Assembly (NCBI RefSeq): GCF_023702125.1
Contig: NZ_CP098415.1
Coordinates: 124,001 to 188,000, forward strand
Source: Halorubrum hochsteinianum
Lineage (GTDB): Archaea; Halobacteriota; Halobacteria; Halobacteriales; Haloferacaceae
Direction: 5' to 3'
Length of the DNA stretch: 64,000 nt
The position numbers were made by a program, and so were the translations under genes. Below are positions 53,547 through 54,761 of this stretch, one piece after another. Under the pieces are notes generated by a model. The model did not search any database, was not told where the DNA came from, and saw only the letters and a list, made by a program, of their open reading frames with translations. Position 1 is the first letter of the stretch; each line of letters begins with the position of its first letter.

Positions 53547-54158
53547 TCAGTTCTCGCGGCGGGCGAACGCGAGGTTGCCGGAGACGTTCTTGATGTAGGC
53601 GGTCACGGTCTCGCCCTCCTGTGCGCCGGGGACGAAGATCGTGTACTCGCCGCGCTCGGCGACGCCGTCGCCCTTGCGCCCGGTGCCGACGATCTCGAGT
53701 TCGTACGTGTTGCCCGACTCGACGGCGTCCTCCTGCCGCTGGGTGTTCTGCGTGTTCTGCTTCGCGACCGGACGGAACGCCCCGCAGGCCTCACAGCGGA
53801 GCATCGGCGTCCGGTTCTCCGTCTCCAGCCGGGTGTCCGGGAGGCCGCACTCCGAGCAGGTGACGAACGACTCGATGTACGAGTCGATCGCGGCCTGGAA
53901 GTCGCGCTCGCGGAAGTTCCCGCTGTAGCGGGCGCGGCCGTCCTCGTACTGCCCGGCCGTGCCGAGCTCCTGCTGGATCTTCGAGTGGACGTGTTCGGGG
54001 TCGCGGCTCAGCGCGTCTGCGATTCCGGAGAGGTTCGTCAGGCGGGTGAACGCCCCGTCCTTCTGGGCTTCGGGGTCCGGAACGGAGAGCCGCTCGTCGG
54101 AGCCGCCCAGGTCCGGGACCTCGTCCATCGCGCGGTCGAGGCTCGATTCGTAATCCAT
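53547..54158 (-). CDS. eif2b: Translation initiation factor aIF2 subunit beta with TRAM domain
   Basis: A 203-residue protein with the aIF2-beta fold: a helical N-terminal part, a central alpha/beta domain (SKIQQELGTAG... FQAAIDSYIESFVTCSECGLPDTRL), and a C4 zinc ribbon with Cys in CSECG and MLRCEACGA. The C-terminal 65 residues form a TRAM domain (ELEIVGTGRKGDGVAERGEYTIFVPGAQEGE), an RNA-binding fusion. It binds initiator tRNA with aIF2-gamma and -alpha. The ATG at 54158 follows a TATA at 54226-54234 by about 68 nt. Notably, the initiator tRNA gene lies 400 bases upstream. Confidence 0.92.
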   Translation of the reverse strand: MDYESSLDRAMDEVPDLGGSDERLSVPDPEAQKDGAFTRLTNLSGIADALSRDPEHVHSKIQQELGTAGQYEDGRARYSGNFRERDFQAAIDSYIESFVTCSECGLPDTRLETENRTPMLRCEACGAFRPVAKQNTQNTQRQEDAVESGNTYELEIVGTGRKGDGVAERGEYTIFVPGAQEGETVTAYIKNVSGNLAFARREN

Positions 54159-54434
54159 ACGAGAGCGAACGACAGCGCGACGGAAATCGCTTCCGGGTTC
54201 GGGGTCGATCGATGACGACGATCGCTTATAAAGAACGACGCGGTCGACGCGTGCCTCCGAGGGCGACGACTCGGCGGCCCTCGCCGCCGTACCGCGGATC
54301 GGTCGTCGTTTCTCCTGTATCGACCGCAAGTTGGACAGGGCCAACCACTCTTTGAGGATTTCAACGGAGCCCAACGGAGCCGAACGAGAGGGAGAAACGG
54401 ACGCCGGACTCGGCGTGTGGCGTCCGTCCAGAAG
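54159..54434. other. Gene-free region upstream of aIF2-beta
   Basis: No credible gene in 276 bases. A TATA box for aIF2-beta lies at 54226-54234. The stretch 54330-54410 contains a short direct repeat, CGGAGCCCAACGGAGCC. The minus-strand translation LKEWLALSNLRSIQEK (about 54300-54356) has a protein-like look and could be a transposase or integrase remnant; that is weak. Confidence 0.45.
54226..54234 (-). promoter_or_regulatory. TATA box of the aIF2-beta gene
   Basis: CTTTATAAG on the minus strand, 68-76 nt before the ATG at 54158, implying a leader of roughly 45 nt. The same bases can be read as a TATA on the plus strand. Confidence 0.6.
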
Positions 54435-54455
54435 TAGCGGGAGGTAGATTTGAAC
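54435..54455 (-). repeat. Direct copy of the initiator tRNA 3' end
   Basis: The 21 bases match exactly those at 54571-54591, the 3' end of the tRNA gene (discriminator base, acceptor arm and part of the T-arm). A 136-base offset separates the copies. Such a duplicate is what an integrated element leaves behind as an attachment site. Confidence 0.75.
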
Positions 54456-54483
54456 CACGGTCACTCCGCTTCCTCCGTTCCCT

Positions 54484-54591
54484 GATTCAAATCTGCTCCG
54501 GGGCTATCTCGTCGACGACGCCGTTCACGCCTCGCTGCGCTCGCCGTTCACGGTTGTCGTCGACAGAAGATAGCGGGAGGTAGATTTGAAC
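54484..54591. repeat. Imperfect inverted repeat reaching into the tRNA gene
   Basis: Left arm 54484-54519 and right arm 54556-54591 are imperfect complements, with the perfect parts GCTATC/GATAGC (54503-54508 with 54569-54574) and GTCGACGAC/GTCGTCGAC (54511-54519 with 54556-54564). The right arm holds the tRNA 3' end. Between them is GCCGTTCACG twice, around CTCGCTGCGCTCG. Thus there is an inverted copy of the tRNA's T-arm and acceptor as well as a direct one. Confidence 0.72.
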
Positions 54592-54645
54592 TACCGATCT
54601 CCGGGTTATGAGCCCGGCGGAATCTCCTGGCTATCCCATCCCGCT
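54571..54645 (-). tRNA. Initiator tRNA-Met (CAT)
   Basis: The minus-strand sequence folds into a 75-nt cloverleaf beginning AGCGGGA and ending TCCCGCTA. The anticodon loop is CTCATAA with the CAT anticodon. The A1:U72 pair at the end of the acceptor stem and three G:C pairs at the base of the anticodon stem (GGG/CCC) are initiator features. The T-loop is GTTCAAATC. No intron was seen and no CCA is encoded. It lies upstream of aIF2-beta on the same strand and next to duplicated copies of its 3' end. Confidence 0.95.
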
Positions 54646-54761
54646 ATCGTAGCAAAACCGCGTGCGAGTGTTAAGGGTTCTGATCCCGCCGCCCGTGTGC
54701 GATTCGTCCACGCGTCTGCCACGGGTTTCAGTCCCGTCACGCGGGCCGGCCGCCGGTCGGG

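Follow-up and report, generated by a model that had tools for sequence, protein, structure and literature searches.

Why should the 3' end of a tRNA gene be written out a second time a short distance downstream of the gene, and what is the DNA that lies in between? In the window (the whole 64,000-nucleotide stretch analyzed here), the 21 bases TAGCGGGAGGTAGATTTGAAC occur as exact direct copies at 54435-54455 and 54571-54591, which confirms the preliminary description of this locus, as does the 115-base gap between the copies. A longer alignment of the two tRNA-Met 3' ends covers 24 nt at 96% with a spacing of 136. No further match to TAGCGGGAGGTAGATTTGAAC was found in the 64 kb with up to 3 mismatches allowed, nor was there any in 100 dinucleotide shuffles of the window. 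The tRNA-Met(CAT) gene at this locus, which we take to be the initiator from its GGG/CCC anticodon stem, lies on the minus strand.

Read along the tRNA strand, a unit of 136 bp follows the gene, in the order spacer hairpin (S), inverted tRNA end (IR'), core, and direct tRNA end (Table 1). The unit folds into two hairpins (z = -4.1), the first being S and the second being IR' paired with the direct copy around the 30-nt core. The imperfect inverted copy that had been proposed for 54484-54519 turned out to join two different things: positions 54486-54506 are indeed the inverted T-loop/T-stem end of the tRNA (15 nt at 87%) and pair with the direct copy, whereas 54507-54519 form one arm of the separate spacer hairpin, whose partner arm is at about 54556-54567.

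Table 1. Parts of the 136-bp unit and its surroundings, in window positions
Feature	Positions	Strand	Evidence
Initiator tRNA-Met gene (anchor)	54569..54646	-	ARAGORN; RF00005, 60.5 bits; 3' discriminator base at 54571
Spacer hairpin S, 64 nt	54507..54570	-	Unit fold z -4.1; conserved among occupied tRNA-Met sites
IR', inverted tRNA 3' end (T-loop/T-stem region, partly acceptor)	54486..54506	-	Repeat comparison; fold; tracks adjoining tRNA across units
Core A (TCAGGGAACGGAGGAAGCGGAGTGACCGTG)	54456..54485	-	Common to units behind other tRNAs; covariance model R1
Direct copy of tRNA 3' end, T-loop (GTTC) to discriminator base; far end of unit	54435..54455	-	Exact repeat; junction with the empty site of G046
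aIF2-beta-like gene, context	53547..54158	-	Next downstream gene on tRNA strand; PF01873, 113 bits, plus TRAM domain

Empty and occupied tRNA-Met sites in the genus

Comparison of the tRNA-Met site in 52 genomes of the same genus found a unit of the 136-bp type in 12 of them (the source genome, G000, together with G006, G019, G021, G024, G025, G036, G038, G039, G042, G047, and G051, that of G019 being at a contig end). At empty sites, for example in G046, G018, and G020, the tRNA is joined straight to the flank. G046 is the closest relative of G000 seen, as judged by the aIF2-beta gene, and its site is an exact empty one: the flank ending CCAGAAG abuts TAGCGGGAGG, matching the window sequence outside the direct copy. 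Conversely, the unit is conserved in G051 and G036 though the outer flanks there are unrelated. All occupied sites that were measured hold 124-137 bp and an identical set of parts. On an aIF2-beta tree of 27 loci, in which G000 and G046 form a well-supported pair with opposite states, presence or absence changes at least 8 times, a count that does not tell gain from loss and is approximate because many inner branches are weak.

A family of units behind other tRNA genes

The core recurs elsewhere in the source genome and in the genus, where the genuine copies of core A are all 3' of a same-strand tRNA and none is inverted (at L015 the tRNA lies beyond the contig end). Of 292 Halobacteria genomes, a covariance model (R1) built from 26 units matched 279 at E <= 0.001 and 114, representing 45 of 77 genera, at E <= 1e-12. 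In a phylum sample it matched 21 of 24 Halobacteria genomes, and it had no match in 124 sampled genomes outside Halobacteria. Every one of the R1 loci inspected, comprising the 30 top matches and 20 weaker ones chosen to test whether weak matches are real, adjoins a tRNA and lies 3' of it on the same strand wherever this was checked. The tRNA at L132 contains an intron, was missed by ARAGORN, and was read by eye as tRNA-Trp, and the palindromic core at L147 gives an R1 score on both strands. Eleven exact pattern matches in Halorubrum, Salinarchaeum, Halonotius, and Halolamina are likewise all behind tRNAs (at L172 by eye).

Of the 45 tRNAs scanned in the source genome, 20 have a downstream direct copy, with 30 copies altogether, against 6 upstream matches under the same loose test. 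A broader extraction yielded 103 distinct units, with a median length of 111 bp and a range of 81-240, which lie behind tRNAs of 22 kinds. The Haloferax gibbonsii plasmid pHG2 carries an initiator tRNA-Met followed by a unit with another spacer and another core. No description of the haloarchaeal units was found in a search of mainly open-access literature. As a separate observation, initiator-like tRNA-Met genes are present on several large haloarchaeal plasmids (L175, NZ_CP011949.1, among them).

Unit arms follow the adjoining tRNA

For 77 units in which both arms are present, the arms were compared with the adjoining tRNAs. The direct copy agrees with the tail of its own tRNA at 12.8 of 13 positions, compared with 7.0 for shuffled tails (maximum 7.9 in 2000), and its start in the T-loop and its end at the discriminator base are constant among units. 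The inverted arm tracks T-stem positions 2-4 (z = 6.7, 6.3, and 4.0, scores that overstate the evidence because related units are not independent), the acceptor being mostly untracked. At L127, the odd T-loop TTCAACT of a tRNA-Lys(CTT) is present in both arms. There is also a second, short-armed class of units, found with tRNA-Arg, -Ala, and -Gly, whose arms lie on the 3' part of the T-stem and the acceptor.

Modular arrays and hybrid tRNA ends

The tRNA-Lys(TTT) arrays of G042, G051, G003, G030, and G020 are assembled from small sets of spacers and cores in differing orders. The array of G042 has four identical units. Those of G042 and G051 also hold a short-armed module that has a tRNA-Arg tail at its start and a tRNA-Lys tail at its end and is 82% like the unit at the source genome's tRNA-Arg(CCT) (L072). 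The two Arg/Lys joints have only ATCCC (5 bp) in common with the native sites, and their ends are reciprocal hybrids. It is chiefly these hybrid ends that make site-specific exchange the preferred explanation. A transposase or casposase acting by target-site duplication was considered and rejected; it would account for the direct copies but would leave two Lys tails rather than hybrids, which a crossover between two sites produces. It may be, though, that a single ancient event accounts for the Arg-in-Lys chimaera in all the species that have it, and a crossover within 5 bp could also result from illegitimate recombination.

A proposed cassette anchored at the tRNA gene

Given the observed architecture, match to the tRNA, precise presence and absence, tandem arrays, shuffling of S and core, and array members with foreign tRNA ends, the explanation that we favor, albeit tentatively, is that the 136 bp are a member of a family of gene-less, tRNA-anchored hairpin cassettes of roughly 100-135 bases moved by a putative trans-acting recombinase. 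The cassettes would move as units, probably in circular form, by a conservative crossover whose position would be the ATCC region, in the T-loop/T-stem portion of the tRNA end, and the putative enzyme supplied in trans would be of the tyrosine-recombinase type. After such a crossover the tRNA would still be whole and its end would be repeated at the distal side of the cassette, where arrays could therefore grow or shrink. A cassette may come to a new tRNA kind by way of a dispensable copy in an array, like the tRNA-Arg module in the tRNA-Lys arrays. The inverted arm might be kept complementary either as part of a hairpin recombination site or as a shield that protects tRNA folding from the spare end.

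Several points speak against cassette movement. The PF00589 genes of the source genome were located, and none is tied to the units; a unit could be lost through recombination of its 21-bp repeats with no dedicated enzyme; and the fixed orientation of the units and the folding bias toward the tRNA strand also fit a role as RNA. The units are a natural system for studying how a small piece of DNA without genes can come to a new tRNA target and leave the tRNA unbroken.

Folding and a possible role as RNA

The median fold z-score of the units is -4.2, and the tRNA strand folds better than its complement, beyond what is seen in shuffles. This strand bias remains under DNA parameters, and G-U pairs, being no commoner on the tRNA strand, are not its cause. 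The bias is compatible with either an RNA role or a role as single-stranded DNA and does not decide between them. Across the 103 units, the motif GCGNAGC was counted 91 times on the tRNA strand but 4 times on its complement. Sequences of the type d(GCGNAGC) form unusually stable DNA minihairpins. The minihairpin idea remains only a lead, since the longer-stem triloops of the units show no GNA enrichment and the units share ancestry.

It is possible, if rather unlikely, that the units form a structured trailer of the tRNA transcript, as RtT does in E. coli, are perhaps processed at each of the tRNA-end copies, and are kept by selection on this RNA, the copies arising through ordinary recombination. 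Besides the strong folding and its strand bias, the fact that cores are never inverted relative to the tRNA agrees with this proposal, as does the tyrT/tyrV locus of E. coli, where a like architecture goes with an annotated small RNA. However, a trailer of this kind sits poorly with the patchy presence of units among close relatives, and foreign tails and module shuffling point to movement. Nor is selection for arm pairing in RNA by way of G-U supported, since G-U mismatches in the arms, read on the tRNA strand, do not outnumber A-C ones (31 versus 53 cells); the lack of commoner G-U pairs on that strand tells in the same direction.

Copying errors at tRNA ends as a possible origin

The units could also be by-products of replication, in which template switching or slippage at a tRNA end makes quasi-palindromic tandem duplications with no dedicated enzyme, and the inverted arm is held to the sequence of the direct one by quasi-palindrome correction. 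Agreement of the arms with each other and with the local tRNA, tandem arrays of identical units such as that in L034, and the short common sequence at the Arg/Lys joints would all be accommodated. We nevertheless judge this origin improbable. The same core A is found behind different tRNA kinds in many genera, and therefore movement or transfer is needed beyond local copying; the constancy of the two ends of the direct copy also counts against it.

Comparison with known systems

Of the known systems compared, the RtT repeats of E. coli tyrT/tyrV are the closest precedent for the units, the architecture being common to both and the sequence not. At that locus, tandem repeats annotated with RttR, with four RF00391 matches, lie directly 3' of the tRNA gene, and each ends in the tRNA-Tyr 3' end ATCCTTCCCCCACCACCA. 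Each repeat also has an inverted piece of the tRNA, GGGGAAGGAT, before a hairpin-rich core (L163), so that the order of parts is equal. The haloarchaeal unit likewise lies 3' of a tRNA gene and has a copy of that tRNA's 3' end as its last part. In contrast, the E. coli repeats are 178 bp long and adjoin one tRNA locus in the stretch examined, whereas the haloarchaeal units have a median of 111 bp, adjoin at least 22 tRNA kinds, and are spread over an archaeal class. A cmscan search of window positions 54300-54700 gave no RF00391 match, only the tRNA and two unrelated sub-threshold matches. The units offer a comparative handle on the poorly understood repeats of tyrT/tyrV.

In integron arrays, modules accumulate beside a fixed anchor in fixed orientation and have hairpin-forming sites. 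The units are like them in all three respects but are cassettes without genes, have a tRNA gene as anchor, and come with no identified IntI or attI. A more sweeping proposal, which we consider distinctly improbable, is that the units are a class-wide, gene-less, integron-like system in which single-stranded hairpin recombination sites would derive from the host tRNA T-arm, the tRNA gene would be the anchor, and E. coli tyrT/tyrV would be a bacterial instance.

The Small Mobile Repeats and MITEs of Haloquadratum resemble the units in being short, gene-less, hairpin-forming, and haloarchaeal, but they are defined by the element's own terminal inverted repeats (PMC3119063). The units have no such constant, element-owned repeats; their arms vary by locus with the adjoining tRNA, and their target is always a tRNA 3' end.

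Integrase elements at the same tRNA genes

Integrases that target tRNA genes usually leave copied tRNA 3' ends as their mark (PMC8371274). The preliminary description had suggested an excised or decayed element here, or repeated use of the site. Integrative elements of this kind, bounded by attL and attR and including those of archaeal tyrosine recombinase families, e.g., SNJ2 (PMC8371274), are like the units in having flanking tRNA 3'-end copies, an empty site, and a whole tRNA. Indeed, a direct repeat of the tRNA 3' end lies at both sides of the insert, and relatives have the empty site. The units differ in that the insert is about 80-240 bp, has no genes, includes an inverted tRNA-end copy as a constant part of its architecture, and forms modular tandem arrays; the 136-bp insert itself contains neither an integrase gene nor any other.

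Two integrase-bearing elements do occur at tRNA genes of the source genome. At tRNA-Gly(TCC) (G000:C1:113137-121650; L159, L099), an element of ~8.1 kb separates the tRNA from two units; it encodes a tyrosine recombinase (PF00589 at 114012), and its attachment repeat, which is its own, is longer and starts in the anticodon arm. At tRNA-Arg(CCG) (L152:1049-8616; G000:C1:1299549-1307115), a short-armed unit is followed by ~7.4 kb that include a PF00589 gene; tail copies at 1201 and 8605 mark the two ends, and one of them, belonging to a unit, may have served as an attachment site. The larger integrase elements and the cassettes are distinct things that share sites.

That a virus or plasmid integrated at the tRNA-Met gene and, by imperfect excision or decay, left two tRNA-end copies is highly improbable, even with such elements elsewhere in the genome and the integrase-like mark at this locus, and the recurrence of units with constant parts is why a large-element scar was rejected as the principal explanation. 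An identical core and layout is found behind many tRNAs, searches of phages, plasmids, and IMG/VR with the core gave no match at the thresholds applied, and the attachment repeat of the tRNA-Gly element is its own. What survives of the earlier claim is an insertion, or a precise loss, at the tRNA 3' end, with empty sites in relatives and repeated changes of state; excision or decay of a large element is not supported, the occupied sites measured in relatives having only the 124-137 bp noted above between the repeats. A copied tRNA end alone is therefore no proof of a lost provirus.

Other repeats in the source genome

A dispersed repeat unlinked to tRNAs, GCGCGAGGGAGTCG..GGAGCGAAGCGGAG..CGACGAGGCTGGGGAGG.GTGAGG, was seen at L003:2027, L038:4918, L070:1195, and L098:1154. 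A tRNA-Phe gene (L101:2050-2600; G000:C1:1092050-1092600) is followed by two longer direct repeats of about 136-147 bp, which include the tail and part of the anticodon arm (GATCGAGCTGTCCCCC) and have a layout that differs from that of the units.
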